A stretch of DNA of 64,000 nt from Quadrisphaera sp. RL12-1S. GTDB lineage: Bacteria; Actinomycetota; Actinomycetes; Actinomycetales; Quadrisphaeraceae. The notes beneath the pieces were generated by a model that ran no database searches, had not been told where the DNA came from, and worked only from the letters and a program-made list of their open reading frames with translations. This document shows, piece after piece, positions 33,341 through 42,901 of this stretch. The translations under genes and the position numbers were made by a program. Numbering within the stretch: the first letter of the stretch is position 1; each line of letters starts with the position of its first letter. Where the stretch lies: NCBI RefSeq assembly GCF_014270065.1, contig NZ_JACNME010000013.1:1-64000 (forward strand), given 5' to 3'.

Positions 33341-34831
33341 TCAGGCCCAGGGGTCGGCGATGCCGGCGTAGAGCGTCTCGAGGTACTCCTCGATGCCCTC
33401 CTCGCCGCCCTCGCGGCCCAGGCCCGACTGCTTCACCCCGCCGAACGGCGCCGCCGGGTTGGAGATGACGCCGGCGTTGATGCCGAGCATCCCCGTCTCC
33501 AGCCGCTCGGTCAGCCGCAGCGCCCGGGCCGTGGAGCCCGTGTACGCGTAGGCGATGAGCCCGAACTCGGTGTCGTTGGCCAGCGCCACGGCGTCGTCCT
33601 CGGTCTCGAAGGTCGTCACCGGCGCGACCGGGCCGAAGATCTCCTCCTTGAGCAGCCGCGAGCCGAGCGGCACGTCGGCGAGGACGGTGGGGGAGAAGAA
33701 GTAGCCCGGCCCCTCGACGCGTCCGCCGCCCGTCAGCACCTTCGCGCCGCGGGAGACCGCGTCGTCGACGAGGTCGGCGATCTTGGTGCGACCCTTCTCG
33801 TTGATGATCGGGCCCACCTGCGCGCCGTCCTCGGTGCCGCGCGCCACCTTCATCCCGCCGATGCGCGCCGCCAGCTTCGCGGAGAACGCCGCTGCCACCG
33901 AGGAGTGCACGTAGAACCGGTTGGCCGAGGTGCAGGCCTCCCCGCCGTTGCGCATCTTCGCCAGCAGCGCCCCCTCGACGGCGGCGTCGACGTCGGCGTC
34001 CTCGAAGACGAGGAACGGGGCGTTGCCGCCCAGCTCCATCGACGTGCGCAGCACGCCCTCCGCGGCCTGCTTGAGCAGCGTCTTGCCCACCGGCGTGGAG
34101 CCGGTGAAGGACAGCTTGCGCAGGCGGGGGTCGGCGATGAGCGGCCCGGTGACGTCACCGGCCCTGGTGCACGGGATGACGTTGACCACGCCGTCCGGCA
34201 GCCCGGCGTCGAGCAGGATCTGGGCGAACAGCAGCGCCGTCAGCGGCGTCTCCGCCGCCGGCTTCAGCACCACCGTGCAGCCCGCCGCCAGCGCCGGGGC
34301 GATCTTGCGGGTGGCCATGGCCAGCGGGAAGTTCCACGGCGTGATGAACAGGCACGGGCCCACCGGCTTCTTCACCACGAGCAGCCGCTGCTTGCCGTCG
34401 GGGGCGGGCAGGTAGCGCCCGGCCACGTGCGCGGCCTGCTCGCTGGACCACCGCAGGAACTCCGAGCCGTAGGCCACCTCCCCGCGGGCCTCGGCCACGG
34501 ACTTGCCCATCTCCAGGGTCATGAGGAGGGCGAGGTCGTCGGCGCGGGCGGTGACGGCGTCGAACGCGCGGCGCAGCAGCTCCGCCCGCTCGCGCGGTGC
34601 GGTGCGGCCCCACGAGGCCTGCGCGGCGACGGCGGCGTCGAGGGCGGCGGCGCCGTCCTCCACCGACGCGTCCGCGACCGTGGTGAGCACGGCGCCGGTG
34701 GCCGGGTCCTCCACGTCGAAGCGCTGGCCGGTGGACGCGGGCACCCAGCGCCCGCCGATGAGGAGGTCGGTGGGGACGCTCGCGACGAGCGCCTCCTCAC
34801 GGCCCTGCTGCGTGGAGGTGTCGGTGCTCAT
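33341..34831 (-). CDS. Succinate-semialdehyde dehydrogenase-like aldehyde dehydrogenase
   Basis: NAD(P)-dependent aldehyde dehydrogenase of 496 residues. Catalytic Glu266 lies in MELGGNAPFL and Cys300 in GGEACTSANRF; FITPWNFPLAMATRKIAPAL and SFTGSTPVGKTL are the cofactor site. The overall pattern is that of GabD-type enzymes, which oxidise succinate semialdehyde to succinate. It is the last gene of an operon with a lactonase, a zinc ribbon protein and an alcohol dehydrogenase, which fits a lactone to hydroxy acid to semialdehyde to diacid route as in BlcA. The ATG overlaps the dehydrogenase stop (ATGA). Confidence 0.92.
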   Translation of the reverse strand: MSTDTSTQQGREEALVASVPTDLLIGGRWVPASTGQRFDVEDPATGAVLTTVADASVEDGAAALDAAVAAQASWGRTAPRERAELLRRAFDAVTARADDLALLMTLEMGKSVAEARGEVAYGSEFLRWSSEQAAHVAGRYLPAPDGKQRLLVVKKPVGPCLFITPWNFPLAMATRKIAPALAAGCTVVLKPAAETPLTALLFAQILLDAGLPDGVVNVIPCTRAGDVTGPLIADPRLRKLSFTGSTPVGKTLLKQAAEGVLRTSMELGGNAPFLVFEDADVDAAVEGALLAKMRNGGEACTSANRFYVHSSVAAAFSAKLAARIGGMKVARGTEDGAQVGPIINEKGRTKIADLVDDAVSRGAKVLTGGGRVEGPGYFFSPTVLADVPLGSRLLKEEIFGPVAPVTTFETEDDAVALANDTEFGLIAYAYTGSTARALRLTERLETGMLGINAGVISNPAAPFGGVKQSGLGREGGEEGIEEYLETLYAGIADPWA

Positions 34832-35991
34832 GCCTGCGATCCTCCACCCGTCGCGCTCTCGTCGCCGAAGAGGACCACCTGGCGCACCGCGCGGCCCTCG
34901 GCCAGGGCGTCCATCGCCTCGTTGATGCCGTCCAGCGTGGTCCGCGAGGAGATCAGCGCGTCGACCGGCAGCCGCCCCTCGCGCCACATCTGCGCGTAGG
35001 TGGGGATGTCGCGCGCGGGCACCGCCGACCCCAGGTAGCTGCCGACGATCGTGCGGGCCTCCGCGGTGATGCCGAGGGGCTTGATGGTCGCCTCGGCGGT
35101 CGGCGCGGGCAGCCCCACCGTGACGGTGGTGCCGCCGACGCCGGTGAGGGCCACCGCCGTCTCGAAGGCCCTGGCGCTGCCTGCGGCCTCCACGACCACC
35201 GGCGCCTTGAGGCCTGATGAGAGCGCCTCGGCGGGGGTGAACACCGCCGAGGCGCCCAGCTCGCGGGCGCGGGCCAGCTTCTCCGGCACCGCGTCGACAC
35301 CGACGACGTCACCCAGGCCCAGTGACACCGCGGTGATGAGGGCCGCCATGCCCACGCCGCCCAGGCCGACCACCACCACGGTGTCGCCCTGGGCCGGCTT
35401 GCCGGCGTTGAGCACGGCACCCCCGCCGGTCAGCACCGCGCAGCCGAGCACGGCCGCCACCTCGGGCGGCACGTCGTCGTCGACGGGGACCACCGAGCGG
35501 CGGTCGACGACGGCGTGCGTCGCGAACCCGCTGACGCCGAGGTGGTGGTGGACGTCGCCGCGGCGACCAGACCCGTCGCCAGCGTCAGCCCAGTGCAGGC
35601 GCCGCCCGCCGCCGAGCAGCTCACCGGCGTTGTTCGCGGCCGAGCCGGGCGTGCAGGGGAGCCGCCCCTCGGTGCGGCAGCCGGCGCACTCCCCGCAGCG
35701 CGGCAGGAACGCCATGACCACGCGCTGCCCGACGGCGACGTCGTCGACACCCTCACCGACCTGCTCCACGCGGCCGCAGGCCTCGTGGCCCAGCAGCATC
35801 GGCACGGGACGCACCCGGTTGCCGTCCACCACGGACAGGTCGGAGTGGCAGACGCCCGCCGCCTCCATGCGCACCAGCAGCTCGCCGGGCCCGGGTGGGT
35901 CGAGCTCGACGTCGACCACCTCGATCGGCCGGCTGCTCGCGTACGGGCGCTCCCTGCCGATCTCCACCAGCACGGCGCCGCGCGCCCTCAT
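34828..35991 (-). CDS. Zinc-dependent alcohol dehydrogenase (BlcB-like role)
   Basis: Medium-chain NAD-dependent dehydrogenase of 387 residues. The catalytic zinc ligands are Cys48 (GVCHSDL), His69 with Glu70 (GHEACG) and a Cys in LGCAVLTGG; the structural zinc is held by CGECAGCRTEGRLPC. VVVVGLGGVGMAAL is the nucleotide loop. A His-rich stretch (GDVHHHLG) lies in the insertion typical of class III-like enzymes. In this operon it should oxidise the omega-hydroxy acid freed by the lactonase to its semialdehyde. Start and stop both overlap neighbours by ATGA. Confidence 0.92.
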   Translation of the reverse strand: MRARGAVLVEIGRERPYASSRPIEVVDVELDPPGPGELLVRMEAAGVCHSDLSVVDGNRVRPVPMLLGHEACGRVEQVGEGVDDVAVGQRVVMAFLPRCGECAGCRTEGRLPCTPGSAANNAGELLGGGRRLHWADAGDGSGRRGDVHHHLGVSGFATHAVVDRRSVVPVDDDVPPEVAAVLGCAVLTGGGAVLNAGKPAQGDTVVVVGLGGVGMAALITAVSLGLGDVVGVDAVPEKLARARELGASAVFTPAEALSSGLKAPVVVEAAGSARAFETAVALTGVGGTTVTVGLPAPTAEATIKPLGITAEARTIVGSYLGSAVPARDIPTYAQMWREGRLPVDALISSRTTLDGINEAMDALAEGRAVRQVVLFGDESATGGGSQA

Positions 35992-36425
35992 GACGCCGCT
36001 CCGCCCGAGGTGGTGCCCCCGGCGGCGGCGGCCTTCGCGGCCTTCGCGGCCTTCGCCGCGGCCAGCGAGGCAACGACGTCGTCCCCGGCGCGCAGCGGCC
36101 GGCCCGCGAAGACGCCCTCGTGGGCGAGCACCGGACGGCGGTCACCGGCCAGCTCCGGGTGGCGCTCCTCGAGCCTCTCGCGCCGCTCGGCCACCGACCG
36201 CCAGTGGGCGACCGTCTCCCGGTCACCCCGGCCGACGCCCTCCCAGCTGCGCGGCATCGCCTCGCGCGGCACGCCCGTCGAGGCGCGCCCTCCGATGTTG
36301 AGGCGCGACGGGCGGCGACGGGTCGCGCCGCCGCACGCCGGGCACGCCGGGTCGGGCGACGTCATCGACGGCACGCCCGCCTCGAAGCGGTGGCCCTGCT
36401 CGCAGGTGAAGTCGTGCAGGACCAT
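35988..36425 (-). CDS. Zinc-ribbon protein (FmdB/DUF1178-like) in the lactone operon
   Basis: 145 residues. The first 32 form a zinc ribbon: a Cys-x2-His pair in FTCEQGHRFEAG and a Cys-x2-Cys pair in CPACGG. The middle is charged (RSVAERRERLEERHPE), and the tail is low-complexity Ala/Lys. It has no enzyme motif, so it may bind nucleic acid or a partner protein, or tune one of the enzymes. It starts on the stop of the lactonase gene (TGATG) and overlaps the dehydrogenase by ATGA. Such a gene is not part of Agrobacterium blcABC. Confidence 0.7.
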   Translation of the reverse strand: MVLHDFTCEQGHRFEAGVPSMTSPDPACPACGGATRRRPSRLNIGGRASTGVPREAMPRSWEGVGRGDRETVAHWRSVAERRERLEERHPELAGDRRPVLAHEGVFAGRPLRAGDDVVASLAAAKAAKAAKAAAAGGTTSGGAAS

Positions 36426-37249
36426 CAGCGGTACACCCCGTCGGGGGCGTAGCGCAGCTGGGCGGCCTGCTCGCCGTCGTGCCCGAAGATGACCTCGGCG
36501 CCCGTGGCCTCGGCGATCTTCCGCAGCTTCTCCACGCTCTCCAGCCACGCCAGGTTGTTCCAGACGATGGCGGCGCCGACGGCCGGCGGGCCCCACGAGT
36601 CGCGCAGGTACACCGCGTCGGAGGTGAAGATCTTGGTGCCCTCCTGCGGGAGGTCCACCTTCAGCGACATGGTCCCCCAGGTGTGGCCGGGGGTCTCGAT
36701 CACGGAGATGCCGGGGAGGATCTCCACGTCGCCGCTGACCGTCTCGATGGGCAGGCCCTGGTAGTCGCTGACGATGTGCGCGCCCTGGCTGTACCCCTGG
36801 ATCCTGGAAGCGCCCTCGACCTCCTTGTCGTTGGCGATGATCCGCGTCTTCCCGTTCATGAAGTCCCGGGCGTTCGCGGCGTGGTCGAAGTGCAGGTGGC
36901 TCAGCACGAGGATGTCGACGTCGTCCGGGGTGAGCTCCAGCGAGGCCAGCGAGGAGTCGAGGTAGCCGGGCCCGTCGACCGGCTCCTTGACGGGGAAGAA
37001 GTCGTGGAAGCCGGTGGGCGCCCAGCGCTCCTCCCAGTCGCGCGGCACGCCGGTGTCCCACAGCACACGGCCCTCGGGGTGCTCGATGAGCACGGCGTGG
37101 GTGGGGCAGTCACCCCAGACCACCGGGTCGTCCCTGTGGTGGCGGTCGCGGATGGTGCGACCGCCCTTGAGCAGCAGCCAGGTCAGGTCGGTCTCCATCA
37201 CGCCGGTGGAGAGCACGTGGAGCTTCATCTCGGGAGCGGCACCAGTCAC
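36425..37249 (-). CDS. Metallo-beta-lactamase-fold lactonase (AHL lactonase family)
   Basis: Cytoplasmic dinuclear-zinc hydrolase of 274 residues. The metal site HLHFDH is at residues 118-123, with [10 protein letters not shown] near 186, FTSDAVYL near 207 and FGHDGEQ near the C-terminus. This is the order seen in AiiA/AttM (BlcC) lactonases, which open gamma-butyrolactone and N-acyl-homoserine lactones. It is the first gene of the operon whose next enzymes would oxidise the resulting hydroxy acid. The GTG at 37249 is chosen because AGGAG lies 6 nt upstream; ATG 37228 is an internal alternative. Which lactone is used is unknown. Confidence 0.87.
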
Positions 37250-37325: not shown

Positions 37326-37525
37326 GGCGGAGACCATGGAGGCGGCCCACACAGTGGCAGCCTCCGGGTGTGCGCGGTAGACACCTGCCCGTGACTACCC
37401 TCGAGGGCGCGGGGACGACGACGGCGGCGGAGACCATGGAGGCGGCCCACACAGTGGCAGCCTCCGGGTGTGCGCGGTAGACACCTGCCCGTGACCACCC
37501 TCGAGGGCGCGGGGACGACGACGGC
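37326..37525 (+). repeat. 100-bp tandem duplication in the regulator leader
   Basis: 37326-37425 and 37426-37525 are identical except for one base (T at 37395, C at 37495). Each copy carries the same inverted CACAC...GTGTG segment and the same GTG start context. Only the second GTG (37491) opens the regulator frame; the first (37391) opens a 29-residue frame ending at 37480. Confidence 0.97.
37391..37480 (+). CDS. Upstream short reading frame created by the duplication
   Basis: GTG at 37391 begins [13 protein letters not shown], the same N-terminus as the regulator, then shifts into the second repeat copy and stops at TAG 37478-37480. The stop is 10 nt before the regulator GTG. If translated it could couple or dampen regulator synthesis. 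No evidence of product function. Confidence 0.35.
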
Positions 37526-39215
37526 GGCGGCCGCGGTGCCCGGGTCCTTCGCCGCGCCGTCACCGACCGACCTGCTGCGCGCCGTCCACGACTCCGCCAC
37601 CGACCTCGCCAGCGTGCGCGACCGCACGGTGATCCTGCGGGCCCTCGTGCGGCGCACCCGCGCTCTGCTCGGCGCCGACATGGCCTACCTGTCGCTGAAC
37701 GACCTCGACGCCGGGGAGACCTGGATCCACGTCACCGACGGCGTGCGCACCCGCGCCTACGCCGAGATCCGGATGCCGCTGGGCACGGGGATCCTCGGCT
37801 CCGTCGCCGCCGGCGGCACCTCCGTGCACACCGACGACTACCTCGCCGACGCCGAGCTCAACCACCTCTCCCACATCGACGAGGCCGTGGCCGCCGAGGG
37901 CGTGCGCGCCATCAGCGGCGAGCCGCTGCGCGTGGACGGGCACCTGGTGGGAGCGCTGCTCGTGGCGCACCGCACGCCGGTGGCCATGCCGTCGGCGGGG
38001 CTCGAGGCGCTGCGCCTGCTCGCCCTGCAGGCGGCCGTGGCCCTGGAGCAGACGCGCCGGGCCGGCGAGATCGCCGAGCTGCGCGCCGCCGCCGCCACCG
38101 CCGAGCGGGACGCCGCCCTGCTCGAGCTCGACGCGCGGCTGCTCGCCGCGGTCGGCGGTGGCGGCGGGTGCCGCGCGGTCGTGGAGGAGCTCGCCGCGCA
38201 GGTCGGTGCCCCGGTGGCCCTGTTCGACGCCGACGGGCGCGTCCGCTGCAGCGCCGGCGGCCCTCCCCGCGGCCCGGGCGCGGGCGCCCGCGACGACGAC
38301 GGGGACGAGGCCTGCGTCGTCGTCCCCGGGGACGGCGCCGCGGAGCTGGGTCGCCTGGTCAGCCCAGTCGTGGGGGAGCGGGCCCTCGGTGCGCTGGCGC
38401 GGGGCGCTCTGGCCGTGGCGGCCGCGCTGCAGGTGGAGCACGAGCTCGCCGAGGCCGCTGACAGGTCGCCGTCAGCGCTGCTCGACGACCTCCTCGACGA
38501 GCGCGGCGTCCGACGGGACGTGCTCGAGGAGCGCGCGCTGGCGCGGGGGCTCGACCTGCGGTCGCCGTCGTCGTCCCTGGTGGCGCTGGTGCCCCCGGCC
38601 GACCGCCAGCGCAGCGTGGCCGCGCTGCGCCCGCTGGTCGAGGGCGCGGGGCTGGTGGCCGTGCACGCCGGTCACGTGTGCCTGGTCTGCACCCGGCGCG
38701 GTGCGGGCGCTGACGAGCTGGGCGCCGCGGCGCAGGCGGCGCTGGCGGGGGCCGGGGTCAGCGCGGTGGTCGGGTGCGCCGACGCCGAGGACCCCGGCGA
38801 CCGGCGCGGCGGCGGACCCGTCGGGCGCGCTCACGCCGAGGCCGCGCAGGTGGCGAGGGCCGCGCAGGTGCTGGGGTGGCGCACCGGCCACGCCGACCGC
38901 GCGCGCCTCGGCGTCGCCGGGCTGCTGCTGGGCGGGACCGACGAGCGCGTGGTGGAGGCGATGGTCGAGCGGCTGCTGGGCCCGGTGCTCTCCTACGACG
39001 CCGCCCACGGCACGCACCTGGAGCAGACCGCGGCGGCCGTGCTGGAGGAGGGCTCGCGCGGCGCCGCGGCAGCGCGCCTGTACGTGCACGTCAACACCGT
39101 GCGGCAGCGCGTGGAGCGGCTCGACGCGCTGCTCGGGGCCGGGTGGGACGCCCCGCCGCGCAGCCTGGACGTGCAGGCCGCGCTCCGGCTGCGGGCGCTG
39201 CGACGGGACGGCTGA
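37491..39215 (+). CDS. GAF-domain PucR/CdaR-type transcriptional regulator
   Basis: Regulator of 574 residues. A GAF sensor domain lies at about residues 30-195 ([39 protein letters not shown]), followed by a coiled segment, a second degenerate sensor-like region, and a C-terminal PucR-type helix-turn-helix from about 510 ([16 protein letters not shown]). It is divergent from the lactone operon and is probably its activator, sensing a lactone or hydroxy acid. The GTG at 37491 is in the second copy of the 100-bp duplication. The Agrobacterium counterpart BlcR is an IclR protein, so control differs here. Confidence 0.85.
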
Positions 39216-39261: not shown

Positions 39262-40122
39262 TCAGGCGGGCGCGTGGTCCGCCGTGCGGTGGTGGCGCCG
39301 GGCGACGACGACGCCGCGCACGCCCACCCCGAGCAGCACCAGCGCTGAGGCGGCCACCCCGGCGCCGATGTGCCAGCGCAGCAGGAGCGCGCCCACCAGG
39401 GCGCCGACCAGCATCGACGCGACGGCGCCGCCCCGGCGCAGCAGCACCGCCCGGTCGTGGGTGCGTCCGGACCAGCCGTGGTCGGCGGACAGGCCCACCA
39501 GCGCCGAGGTGACCACCACCGTCGGGACGTCGGGGACGCCGATGCGGCGCGCCGCGACCGCCTGGGCGCCCATCGCCGCCGCCGTGATCGCGGTGACGGC
39601 GTCGAGCCAGGTGCTGTTGAGCGCGGTGGTGGCCAGCGCCACCGCCACGGCGCCGACGACCGCGGCGACGGCCACGAGCGTCCACGCGGAGAGCCGGTCC
39701 GCACCGGCCCGCGGGGCCCTGCCGCGGCCCGCGCGTCCCAGGAGCGCCGCGCCCACCACGAAGCCCGCCAGCGCCAGGCTGGCGCGCAGCAGCGTGCTGG
39801 CGTCGTACCCGGCCAGACCCAGGCCGATGAAGATGACGTTGCCGGTCATGTTGGCGGTGAAGACGCCGTGCAGGCCCAGGTAGGTGGCGGCGTCCAGCAC
39901 CCCCGTGCCGAACGTCACCAGCAGCATGGGCACCAGCGCCGAGCTCGCCTCCAGGGAGCGCTCCTCCCGGGAGCGCGGCGTCTCGGGCGGGCCGCCGACC
40001 GCGGCCCGCCCGGTCTGGGGCAGCACCACCGCCGGGGTGGGGACGGCGCTGGCCGCCGCCGTCGTCGTCGCCGGGACCACCGTGGTGGTGACCTCGCCGG
40101 GCGCGGCGGGTCCGCTGGTCAT
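39262..40122 (-). CDS. DUF1275 (YoaK-like) membrane protein
   Basis: Membrane protein of 286 residues. After a disordered 60-residue Thr/Pro/Ala-rich N-terminus come six helices. The family signature GVLDAATYLGLHGVFTANMT, continuing GNVIFIG, stands at about residues 74-100. Function of the family is unknown, though some act in transport. It is the last gene of MocR-BenE-DUF1275, with its ATG overlapping the benE stop (ATGA). Confidence 0.88.
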   Translation of the reverse strand: MTSGPAAPGEVTTTVVPATTTAAASAVPTPAVVLPQTGRAAVGGPPETPRSREERSLEASSALVPMLLVTFGTGVLDAATYLGLHGVFTANMTGNVIFIGLGLAGYDASTLLRASLALAGFVVGAALLGRAGRGRAPRAGADRLSAWTLVAVAAVVGAVAVALATTALNSTWLDAVTAITAAAMGAQAVAARRIGVPDVPTVVVTSALVGLSADHGWSGRTHDRAVLLRRGGAVASMLVGALVGALLLRWHIGAGVAASALVLLGVGVRGVVVARRHHRTADHAPA

Positions 40123-41444
40123 GGCCGTCCTCCTGCGGATCGGGTGCGGGGGCGCAGCCAGAGGTAGCACAGGGCGCCGGCGAGCAGGCCCCACACGGCG
40201 CTGCCGACACCCGACAGGGTCACGCCGCTGGCCACCACGAGGAACGCCAGCACGGCGGCGGTGCGGTGCTCGGCGGGCTGGTCCGCCTGCACCGCCGAGG
40301 CCAGGCCGCCGAGGAAGGCGCCCAGGAGCGCGAGCCCCGCGACCGCCTGCACCAGCAGCGGCGGCCCCGACGAGACCAGCGCGGCCGCGGCGGTGGACAG
40401 CAGCGCCAGCCCCAGGTAGGTCACGCCCCCGGTGACGGCGGCGGGCCAGCGGCGGCGGGTGTCCGGGTGCACCTCGGGCCCGGCCATGATCGCCGCGGAC
40501 AGCGCGGCGAGGTTGAGCGCGTGCACCCCCACGGGGGCGCCGAGCACCGTGGCGGCGCCGGAGCCGACCAGCGCGGTGCGGGCGGGCGGGTCGGGGTAGC
40601 CGGCGCCGCGCAGCACCGCCAGGCCGGGGACGTTCTGGCTGGCCATGGTCACCAGGTAGAGCGGCACGCCGATGCTCAGCAGCACCAGCGGGTCCAGCTG
40701 CGGCGTGGTCCAGGTGAGCACGGGCGCCCAGCCGAGGCCGGCAGCGCCAGCGGCGGCCGACCCGGCGACGGGTCCGGCGGCCGGACCCCGCTCCAGGGTG
40801 AGGGCCAGGGCGACGACGAGCGCTGACGGCACCGCCCACGCCGGCGCCAGGCGCCGCAGCACCAGCCACACGAGCACGACGGCGCCCCCGGCGAGCGGGT
40901 CGCGGGCCACGGCCGTCACCGGTGCCAGGCAGAGGGGCAGGAGCACGCCGGCCAGCAGCGCGCCCGACAGCGGCGCGGGCACGCGGGTGACCAGGCGGGA
41001 CAGCGCCGGCCACGCCCCCGTGAGCACCACCAGCAGCCCGCACAGCACGAACGCGCCCACCGCCTCGGGGAACGCCACCCCGCCCGCGCCCGCCGCCACC
41101 AGCACGGCGGCGCCCGGCGTCGACCAGGCGAAGGAGACGGGCGTGCGCGTGCGCCAGGAGACCGCGATGGCGAGCACGCCCTGCAGCGCGCACAGGGCGA
41201 CGAGGCCGGAGGCGGCCTGCGCCGGGGTGGCGCCGACGGCGGCCAGGCCCGTGAGCACCACGGTGAAGGAGCTGGCGTACCCGGTGACGGCGCCGACGAC
41301 GCCGGCCGCCACCTGCCGCCCGCTCCCTCCCCGGCCCGCCCCTCCCCCCAGCGCCCCTTCCCGCGGCCGAGCGCTCGGCTGCGGCTCCGACGGGGGCGGG
41401 AACCGAAACGAGGCGCTCGGCTGCGGTCCGGGTGGGGTGCTCAT
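40119..41444 (-). CDS. benE: BenE-family (benzoate) transporter
   Basis: Membrane transporter of 441 residues with about 11-12 helices. GYASSFTVVLTGLAAVGATP at about residues 55-74, FAWSTPGAAVLVAAGA and VPLYLVTMASQNVPGLAVLR are hallmarks of BenE proton symporters for benzoate. The N-terminus has two PQPSA repeats in a disordered part. It lies between a MocR-type regulator and DUF1275, all overlapping by ATGA. No benzoate-degrading gene is in view, so the aromatic substrate is only assumed from the family. Confidence 0.88.
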   Translation of the reverse strand: MSTPPGPQPSASFRFPPPSEPQPSARPREGALGGGAGRGGSGRQVAAGVVGAVTGYASSFTVVLTGLAAVGATPAQAASGLVALCALQGVLAIAVSWRTRTPVSFAWSTPGAAVLVAAGAGGVAFPEAVGAFVLCGLLVVLTGAWPALSRLVTRVPAPLSGALLAGVLLPLCLAPVTAVARDPLAGGAVVLVWLVLRRLAPAWAVPSALVVALALTLERGPAAGPVAGSAAAGAAGLGWAPVLTWTTPQLDPLVLLSIGVPLYLVTMASQNVPGLAVLRGAGYPDPPARTALVGSGAATVLGAPVGVHALNLAALSAAIMAGPEVHPDTRRRWPAAVTGGVTYLGLALLSTAAAALVSSGPPLLVQAVAGLALLGAFLGGLASAVQADQPAEHRTAAVLAFLVVASGVTLSGVGSAVWGLLAGALCYLWLRPRTRSAGGRP

Positions 41445-42901
41445 GCGGTCCACCTCGCCGGGGTGCGCGACGTCGGGGCGCTCGCCACGGCCCGCGCCCG
41501 CGCTTCGCGCAGCACCGCCACGAGCGCCGGCGCGTCCTCGGGGGCCACGGTCAGCGGTAGGCGCAGCCACCGGTCGCCGGTGCCGTCCACCGTGAACCGC
41601 GGCCCGGGCACCAGCCGCACCCCGAGGTCGAGGGCGTGCGAGACCAGCTGCGTGGCGCTCGGCGTGGGCAGGCCCACCCACAGCACCAGCCCGGCCTGGC
41701 CCCCGGACGGCGCGGTGCGCACCGTCCAGTCCGGCACCCCCGCCGCCAGCGCCGCGAGCAGCCCGGCCCGGCGCTGCGCCAGCAGCGCCCGTCGCTCGGC
41801 CAGCAGCTCCGGCGCCCGCGCCAGCAGGTGCACCGCCACCAGCTGGTCGAGCACGGGGGAGGTGATGTCGAGCCCCGCGCGCACCTGCGCCAGCCGTGAC
41901 ACCAGCTCCGGGGAGGCGCGCACCCACCCCAGGCGCAGCCCCGCCCAGAAGCTCTTGCTCACCGACCCCAGCGTCACCACCTCCTCGCCCGGCGACCCCC
42001 GGCGTGACTCGGCGAGCGCCGCCAGCGGGGTCTGGGCCTCGGCGGGGTCCACGAGGTCGGCGAAGGTCTCGTCCGCGGCCACCACCGGCCCGCCCGCCAG
42101 GGCGGCCAGCAGCTGGGTGCGCGCGTCGTCGTCCTGCACCAGGCCGGTGGGGTTCTGCGCGTCGGGGGTGACGTGCGCCAGCGCGGTCTGCGCCACCGCT
42201 CGCCGGCCCGCCGGTGACGCCGGCAGCTCCCACCCGTGCTCGCCCAGCGGCAGCGCCACCGGGCGCACGTGGTGGGCGCGGACGGCGTCGACGACGGCGG
42301 GGTAGGTCGGCTGCTCCACCAGCGCCCGCTGGCCAGGGCGCGACAGGGCCCCCAGCAGCAGGTTCCACCCCTGCAGCGCCCCGCTCGTGACGAGCACCTG
42401 CTCCGGCCGCGTGGCCAGGCCGCGCGCGGTGAGGTGGGCCGCCACGGCGTCGCGCAGCACCGGCAGCCCGAAGGCGTGCATGCCGTGGTGCGCCAGCTGC
42501 AGCGGCAGGTCCGCGCTCGCGGCGGTGACCGCGTCCAGCACGGCGGCCGGCGCGGGCAGCGCGGCCATGGTCAGGTCCAGCACGCCCTCCGGCTCGCGCT
42601 CGCCGCCCGGGTCGACGTCGGGCCGCTCCAGGGGGCTGCCGCTGGTCGGCAGCGCCACGCGGCTGCCGGCCCCGTGGGCGCTGCGCAGGTACCCCTCGGA
42701 GCGCAGGACGTCGTAGGCGGCGCTCACCGTGGTCCGGCTGACGCCGAGCGCCGCGGCCAGCGCTCGCTCGCTGGGCACCCGGGCGCCCACGGGGAGGCGG
42801 CCGTCCAGCGCGAGGCCGCGCACGCCGTCGGCGACCGCCGTGTAGGCGGCTCCGGCGCCGAGCCAGGGCGCGAGCAGGGAGGAGAGTCGGCCGGGGTCCA
42901 C
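41441..42901 (-). CDS. MocR-family GntR/aminotransferase regulator
   Basis: Regulator of 486 residues: a GntR winged helix at residues 10-80 (GLALDGRLPVGARVPSERAL, VSRTTVSAAYDVLRSEGYL) joined to a type I aminotransferase-fold domain. The PLP lysine is in LGSVSKSFWAGLRLGW, and HVTPDAQNPTGLV is the cofactor region. Such proteins sense pyridoxal phosphate or amino compounds. The GTG at 42901 starts next to a dyad (42918-42945). A divergent YczE gene is a classic MocR partner; BenE and DUF1275 follow it in the operon. Confidence 0.92.
   Translation of the reverse strand: MDPGRLSSLLAPWLGAGAAYTAVADGVRGLALDGRLPVGARVPSERALAAALGVSRTTVSAAYDVLRSEGYLRSAHGAGSRVALPTSGSPLERPDVDPGGEREPEGVLDLTMAALPAPAAVLDAVTAASADLPLQLAHHGMHAFGLPVLRDAVAAHLTARGLATRPEQVLVTSGALQGWNLLLGALSRPGQRALVEQPTYPAVVDAVRAHHVRPVALPLGEHGWELPASPAGRRAVAQTALAHVTPDAQNPTGLVQDDDARTQLLAALAGGPVVAADETFADLVDPAEAQTPLAALAESRRGSPGEEVVTLGSVSKSFWAGLRLGWVRASPELVSRLAQVRAGLDITSPVLDQLVAVHLLARAPELLAERRALLAQRRAGLLAALAAGVPDWTVRTAPSGGQAGLVLWVGLPTPSATQLVSHALDLGVRLVPGPRFTVDGTGDRWLRLPLTVAPEDAPALVAVLREARARAVASAPTSRTPARWTA

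Follow-up and report, generated by a model that had tools for sequence, protein, structure and literature searches.

A Lactonase and Zinc-Ribbon Operon in Quadrisphaera, a Candidate Route for the Catabolism of Gamma-Butyrolactone or 4-Hydroxybutyrate

Four overlapping genes lie on the minus strand of a 64,000-nt stretch of DNA from the actinobacterium Quadrisphaera sp. RL12-1S (contig NZ_JACNME010000013.1, positions 1 to 64,000; hereafter the window). In order, they are lac, encoding a lactonase of the metallo-beta-lactamase (MBL) fold; zr, encoding a zinc-ribbon protein (ZR); adh, encoding a zinc-dependent alcohol dehydrogenase (Zn-ADH); and aldh, encoding an aldehyde dehydrogenase (ALDH) of the succinic-semialdehyde dehydrogenase (SSADH) type (Table 1). 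Adjoining genes overlap by 1, 4, and 4 nt, with the junction letters TGATG at lac/zr and ATGA at both zr/adh and adh/aldh. Such a set of four overlapping genes had been described in an earlier note on this DNA and is confirmed by the coordinates, the junctions, and the Pfam domains. Judging from sequence comparison, the operon probably serves the catabolism of gamma-butyrolactone (GBL) and/or 4-hydroxybutyrate (GHB) in soil actinobacteria. Across related clusters, the ZR is the steadiest companion of the lactonase and is not tied to one given alcohol dehydrogenase.

Table 1. Features of the operon and of its upstream region in the window.
Feature	Position	Strand	Basis or remark
aldh: SSADH-type aldehyde dehydrogenase, ATG start 34831	33341..34831	-	TIGR01780, homology
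adh: zinc-dependent alcohol dehydrogenase of the medium-chain dehydrogenase/reductase (MDR) type, 387 aa	34828..35991	-	Pfam ADH_N + ADH_zinc_N
zr: FmdB-like zinc-ribbon protein, 145 aa	35988..36425	-	PF09723 33.5 bits, TIGR02605 26.9 bits, alignment
lac: MBL-fold lactonase, 274 aa, GTG start, GAGGAG upstream	36425..37249	-	Pfam Lactamase_B, HLHFDH motif, metal ligands
Tandem duplication, 100 bp, 99/100 identical; covers palindrome and first PucR codons	37326..37525		Sequence comparison
Candidate operator palindrome GGTGTG-N7-CACACC, copy 1, one mismatch	37367..37385		Pattern shared in family
Candidate operator palindrome, copy 2	37467..37485		217 bp upstream of lac, 5 bp before probable PucR start
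GAF-PucR regulator gene, divergent from operon	37491..39215, frame open from 37470	+	GAF and PucR HTH_30 domains

The lactonase reaches 63.7 bits on Pfam Lactamase_B (cut-off 22.7). Its residues H118, H120, D122, H123, H189, D211, and H257 are shared with AttM/BlcC, and the HxHxDH motif and the other metal ligands are invariant in 16 alignment rows that include AttM. BlcC itself is only a distant homologue (28% over 277 columns, E 3e-21). The nearest NCBIfam model is that of the AhlS lactonase, on which it scores 154.5 bits (cut-off 475), and GcL, a quorum-quenching lactonase, is among the nearest solved structures and matches over the full length. The window lactonase differs from both in having a conserved zinc-ribbon companion within a putative catabolic operon.

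The ZR of the window falls just under the curated cut-offs of PF09723 (33.5 vs. 34.4 bits) and TIGR02605 (26.9 vs. 31.3 bits). Three other ZRs were scanned with Pfam, and those of loci L099 (44.4) and L109 (34.4) reach the cut-off while that of L105 (24.3) stays below it. Residues C8, H12, C28, and C31, spaced C8-x3-H12 ... C28-x2-C31, do not vary across 16 rows, and a C-terminal stretch around PELAGDRRPVLAHEG shows a similar degree of conservation. The ligand motif of FmdB zinc ribbons is CxxC...CxxC, a pattern from which the window ZR departs in its first half, where C8-x3-H12 is found. An AlphaFold2 model of the protein was poor (mean pLDDT 66, pTM 0.32).

The ALDH scores 521.6 bits on Pfam Aldedh and is 66% identical to the SSADH of plasmid pAO1 and 49% identical to BlcA over 465 residues. 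The nearest NCBIfam model of the Zn-ADH is TIGR03989, the NDMA/mycofactocin-dependent alcohol dehydrogenases, at 248.9 bits against a cut-off of 440; for the radical SAM (rSAM) mycofactocin maturation gene, the best match in the genome scored 32 bits (cut-off 265), and control genomes were likewise all below the cut-off. Between the Zn-ADH and BlcB, BLASTP gave no alignment over 15.8 bits. Kin of the Zn-ADH are carried on plasmids of Kocuria (68%), Rhodococcus rhodochrous (64%), and Sphingomonas MM-1 (61%), and on a plasmid of Rhodococcus opacus (L056:9001-11600) a Zn-ADH gene adjoins an SSADH-type gene (67-69% to those of the window). In the plasmid searches, the zinc ribbon had no match, and no lactonase exceeded 60%.

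Within the family of the window, eight of 13 genomes, counting that of the window, have a close lactonase (identity at least 87%). The ZR is present in the same eight, and all seven relatives examined have the same five genes. A lactonase-driven scan of GTDB genomes returned 15 loci, five of which (L029-L033) are window-family genomes already in the set. The 15 loci belong to Quadrisphaera, Pseudokineococcus, a record titled Streptomyces sp. NP160, Arthrobacter, Pseudoclavibacter, Rhodococcus, Mycobacterium/Mycolicibacterium, Brachybacterium, and metagenome-assembled genomes (MAGs) of Propionibacterium and Actinomycetaceae. The order lac-zr-ADH is kept in all 15, the ATGA overlap of zr and ADH in 14, a matched PucR gene in 14, and an ALDH gene directly downstream in 11. 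This order is beyond chance. Of the two outcomes that the earlier note would have taken as a refutation, a lack of joint conservation of the four genes in relatives did not occur. The lactonase clade is rare: 6 of 396 phylum genomes matched at E 1e-30, the five besides the window's own being relatives of 35-37%, and 4 of 355 class genomes matched, all four with a ZR accompanying lac.

In the Pseudoclavibacter locus (L036), a remnant of the ALDH had been guessed by eye; this candidate was rejected, as Pfam gives only DUF1097 there and NCBIfam nothing. The Propionibacterium MAG (L043:5303-8245) carries genes for DhaL and DhaK-type kinase subunits directly upstream of lac-zr-ADH; no PucR was matched at this locus, and the lac match shifts frame near residue 31.

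At the thresholds used, searches driven by the ZR gave matches in 5 of 396 genomes of the phylum, 7 of 394 of the class, and 30 of 396 of the order, weak N-terminal matches included. Matches with E above 1e-25 were excluded from follow-up, and G824, which is the same place as L042, was counted once. Loci L071 and L118 (E. coli gabD) do not enter the comparisons. The ZR and lactonase searches plus fetched contexts gave a set of 41 clusters, the window and 40 others, which is biased because each of them entered it by way of lac or zr. In this set, a full-length lactonase is present in 38 of 41 clusters (37 as open frames, with L043 frameshifted), and the ZR lies on the strand of the lactonase in all 38. 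The lactonase-driven samples alone likewise pair the ZR with lac in 15/15 and 4/4 cases.

What varies is the dehydrogenase. Type A clusters (24/41) have lac-zr-ZnADH, with PucR matched in 23 of the 24 and the ALDH directly next in 18. In type B (7/41), the gene of an iron enzyme resembling the hydroxyacid-oxoacid transhydrogenase (HOT) separates lac from zr, and a Zn-ADH of the window kind was not matched. Type C (5/41) keeps lac-zr and has the Zn-ADH encoded on the other strand, in divergent orientation in four clusters and in convergent orientation in L105. In L099 and L109, lac-zr is present and neither dehydrogenase was matched nearby as a close relative, while the iron enzyme and zr occur with no lac in view in L070, where the contig ends, and in L116. 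The latter is decayed (L116:6491-9029), and what is left there is a HOT-like gene together with a truncated zr and a portion of PucR; in another wrecked cluster (L112:7390-7842), only the C-terminus of lac is left beside zr. Because the ZR accompanies full-length lactonases in 38 of 41 clusters while the dehydrogenase changes, the view of the earlier note that the zinc ribbon is an added gene was not borne out. The idea that the ZR is the partner of the ADH, drawn from the ATGA overlap, is weakened as well, given that ZR and lac remain together where the ADH lies on the opposite strand or is replaced.

The assignment of the iron enzymes rests on a 13-residue HOT insert between helices 8 and 9, placed by sequence alignment. 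All HOT proteins are described with this insert, and HOT converts GHB to succinic semialdehyde (SSA) with 2-oxoglutarate, according to an excerpt of PMC5125639. Nine loci have an iron enzyme; those of L100, L115, and L116 were left out of the alignment, and the insert is present in all six that were aligned (five full, one partial) and absent from BlcB and from an iron-containing alcohol dehydrogenase (Fe-ADH) of Arthrobacter. A YdiJ-like gene follows zr in three of the nine loci (L095, L096, L070), and its product could recycle the HOT co-product. L115 has only a 53-residue match at another place, and none was seen in the available sequence of the remaining five loci, which in L098 and L100 stops within or at zr. 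The two type C clusters searched for it, L101 and L104 out of five, both have a succinyl-CoA:acetate CoA-transferase above its curated cut-off.

In a tree of the lactonases, the rows of types A and C form one group (95/85) and those of type B lie outside it; on this tree, two changes are needed for the three types. The tree omits L043 for its frame change, L112, L116, and L070 for want of a full lactonase, and L029-L033 because their genomes were already represented; the row of L046 ran beyond its stop, for which X was put in. Evolution may have gone from HOT to Zn-ADH, a direction kept tentative because the outgroup rows are on very long branches.

Several known systems invite comparison. In Agrobacterium, blcABC (attKLM) takes GBL through GHB and SSA to succinate, according to an excerpt of PMC3907764, and the annotation of pAtC58 gives blcR, an SSADH, an iron-containing ADH, and attM as consecutive genes. 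The window shares with it an MBL-fold lactonase, an SSADH, the three-step logic, and a divergent regulator gene. The claim of the earlier note that the three enzymes are those of blcABC stands for the lactonase and the ALDH and fails for the ADH, as BlcB is annotated as an iron ADH and is unrelated to the Zn-ADH. The differences in gene order and in the regulator (GAF and PucR helix-turn-helix domains here, the IclR-type BlcR there), both pointed out earlier, are real, and no zinc ribbon is annotated in blcABC. The window operon is not a blcABC member, since its ADH and regulator differ, though its function may be the same.

The HOT (ADHFE1) and D-2-hydroxyglutarate dehydrogenase pair has a parallel in the joint HOT-like and YdiJ-like genes of L095, L096, and L070, but these are bacterial and share their operons with a zinc-ribbon gene and, at two of these loci, with a lactonase gene, and the window itself has a Zn-ADH. 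The lower nicotine pathway of pAO1 shares a closely related ALDH with the same predicted reaction; in the breakdown of nicotine, the pAO1 enzyme forms succinate from SSA (PMC6214936, excerpt), with SSA arising from methylaminobutyrate, not from a lactone. The gamma-lactone pathway of Rhodococcus erythropolis (qsd) is another case of actinobacterial lactone catabolism begun by a lactonase (PMC3689677, excerpt). It differs in its acyl-CoA ligase and TetR-type QsdR (PMC6262395, excerpt), and the parts of these sources that were used contain no zinc ribbon. Among the literature matches listed, no title describes a lactonase-zinc-ribbon operon. The logic of the pathway is already known, and the parts list is new. 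QsdA belongs to another lactonase family.

The window operon most likely encodes a blcABC-like route from lactone to hydroxyacid, semialdehyde, and diacid. The lactonase would open the GBL ring to give GHB, the Zn-ADH would oxidise GHB to SSA, and the SSADH-type enzyme would oxidise SSA to succinate, which would enter the tricarboxylic acid cycle. The reading for GBL and GHB is preferred because the ALDH is near the pAO1 SSADH and BlcA, HOT-like enzymes stand in the place of the ADH, YdiJ-like and CoA-transferase genes occur in related clusters, the metal ligands of the lactonase are intact, and the pairing of ZR and lactonase is constant. The ZR would act with the lactonase, through metal loading, stability, or complex formation, and not with one particular dehydrogenase. 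A stronger proposal, tentative and more doubtful than the route itself, is that this lactonase clade has a dedicated partner in the ZR, as a metallochaperone or subunit, which would make these two-component lactonases. Lactonase and ZR would then form a fixed pair into which evolution plugged two unrelated 4-hydroxybutyrate oxidases, the 2-oxoglutarate-coupled HOT and the NAD-type Zn-ADH.

A number of observations weigh against these readings. The ALDH scores 555.8 bits on the SSADH model TIGR01780, below its cut-off of 646.35, and does not adjoin the ADH in 6 of 24 type A clusters. The ALDHs near six type B and C clusters are only 35-37% identical to that of the window, and the two that were scored are nearest to betaine-aldehyde dehydrogenase models. 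The first HOT insert (19 residues, helices 5-6) is longer in the iron enzymes than in BlcB but close to the length in the Arthrobacter Fe-ADH and so does not separate HOT. The best model for the YdiJ-like product of L095, the one that was scored, is the D-2-hydroxyglutarate dehydrogenase YdiJ at 506 bits, below the cut-off of 1350. The conserved zr/ADH overlap would suit a partnership of ZR and ADH, too. The ALDH is also 58% identical, and so nearer than to BlcA, to an ALDH in a Sphingomonas cluster that has an alpha/beta hydrolase and an NAD(P)/FAD oxidoreductase that may be a Baeyer-Villiger enzyme, and the other plasmid-borne Zn-ADH kin, of Kocuria and R. rhodochrous, sit in similar clusters. 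Because the kin of both dehydrogenases are found in such surroundings, a longer lactone is possible as the substrate.

The same chemistry could thus act on a larger or substituted lactone, such as delta-valerolactone, epsilon-caprolactone, or a Baeyer-Villiger product, and lead to glutarate, adipate, or a similar acid. This is unlikely, given that HOT-type enzymes take the place of the ADH, the pAO1 SSADH is closer to the window ALDH, a succinyl-CoA transferase occurs in two type C clusters, and some Zn-ADH relatives have no oxidoreductase and hydrolase neighbours of this kind; no Baeyer-Villiger enzyme was recognised by eye in the lists of open reading frames, where no dedicated search was made. 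It is quite improbable that the ADH acts before the lactonase, turning 1,4-butanediol or 2-hydroxytetrahydrofuran into GBL, which would then be opened, with GHB oxidised by another enzyme. Arthrobacter MYb23 (L035:868-5044) does offer another candidate for GHB oxidation, because an Fe-ADH (33% to BlcB) and an SSADH-type gene, together with an MHS-like transporter, lie upstream of its PucR-lac-zr-ZnADH cluster. A second MDR enzyme adjoins lac-zr in L101 and L104, and one lies beside the Zn-ADH in L106 and L107. The HOT-like enzyme of type B, however, stands in the place of the ADH, which suggests that both catalyse the same step, the oxidation of GHB.

The earlier note had also raised the idea that the operon quenches signals; these could be the N-acylhomoserine lactones (AHLs) of neighbours or the gamma-butyrolactone hormones of actinobacteria. 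The kinship to GcL is in favour of such a role, as is the breakdown of both GBL and an AHL by BlcC (PMC3907764, excerpt). Against it, two dehydrogenases encoded in the same operon would use the product of the lactonase, the lactonase stays below the cut-offs of all five quorum-quenching lactonase models matched in NCBIfam (among them AiiA, 99.8 against 375, and AttM, 89.2 against 390), and the four genes include no acyl-CoA ligase, unlike the qsd operon. A search for AfsA was silent in the window genome and equally in 14 control genomes, and because the controls were silent too, it shows nothing. Nothing tested supports quenching, which is highly improbable here.

The GAF-PucR protein may control the divergent promoter, perhaps through the palindrome GGTGTG-N7-CACACC. 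With 0-2 mismatches, this pattern lies 114-148 bp upstream of lac in all eight family genomes. At most 2 of 200 shuffles of each upstream region matched it as well, a comparison that is partly circular because the motif was read from the same sequences. Outside the family, the best match in 27 other upstream regions has at least 3 mismatches. The PucR gene probably starts at GTG 37491, not at 37470, as this start aligns in four relatives of the genus. The second copy of the 100-bp unit was not seen in the seven relatives, three of which have diverged there, and a frame of 29 codons, ending in TAG, now begins at the first copy of the PucR start. Beyond the regulator, positions 40119-42368 of the window encode a membrane protein that, judged by eye, may belong near the BenE family of benzoate transporters.

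If the preferred reading for GBL and GHB is true, actinobacteria would have a candidate operon for the catabolism of these compounds, and one pathway step would be filled by unrelated enzymes in different clusters while the lactonase persists. The homology of this clade to quorum-quenching lactonases calls for caution in giving it that name by homology alone. Ultimately, the role of an FmdB-like zinc ribbon becomes testable here, since its gene is so steadily paired with one enzyme.

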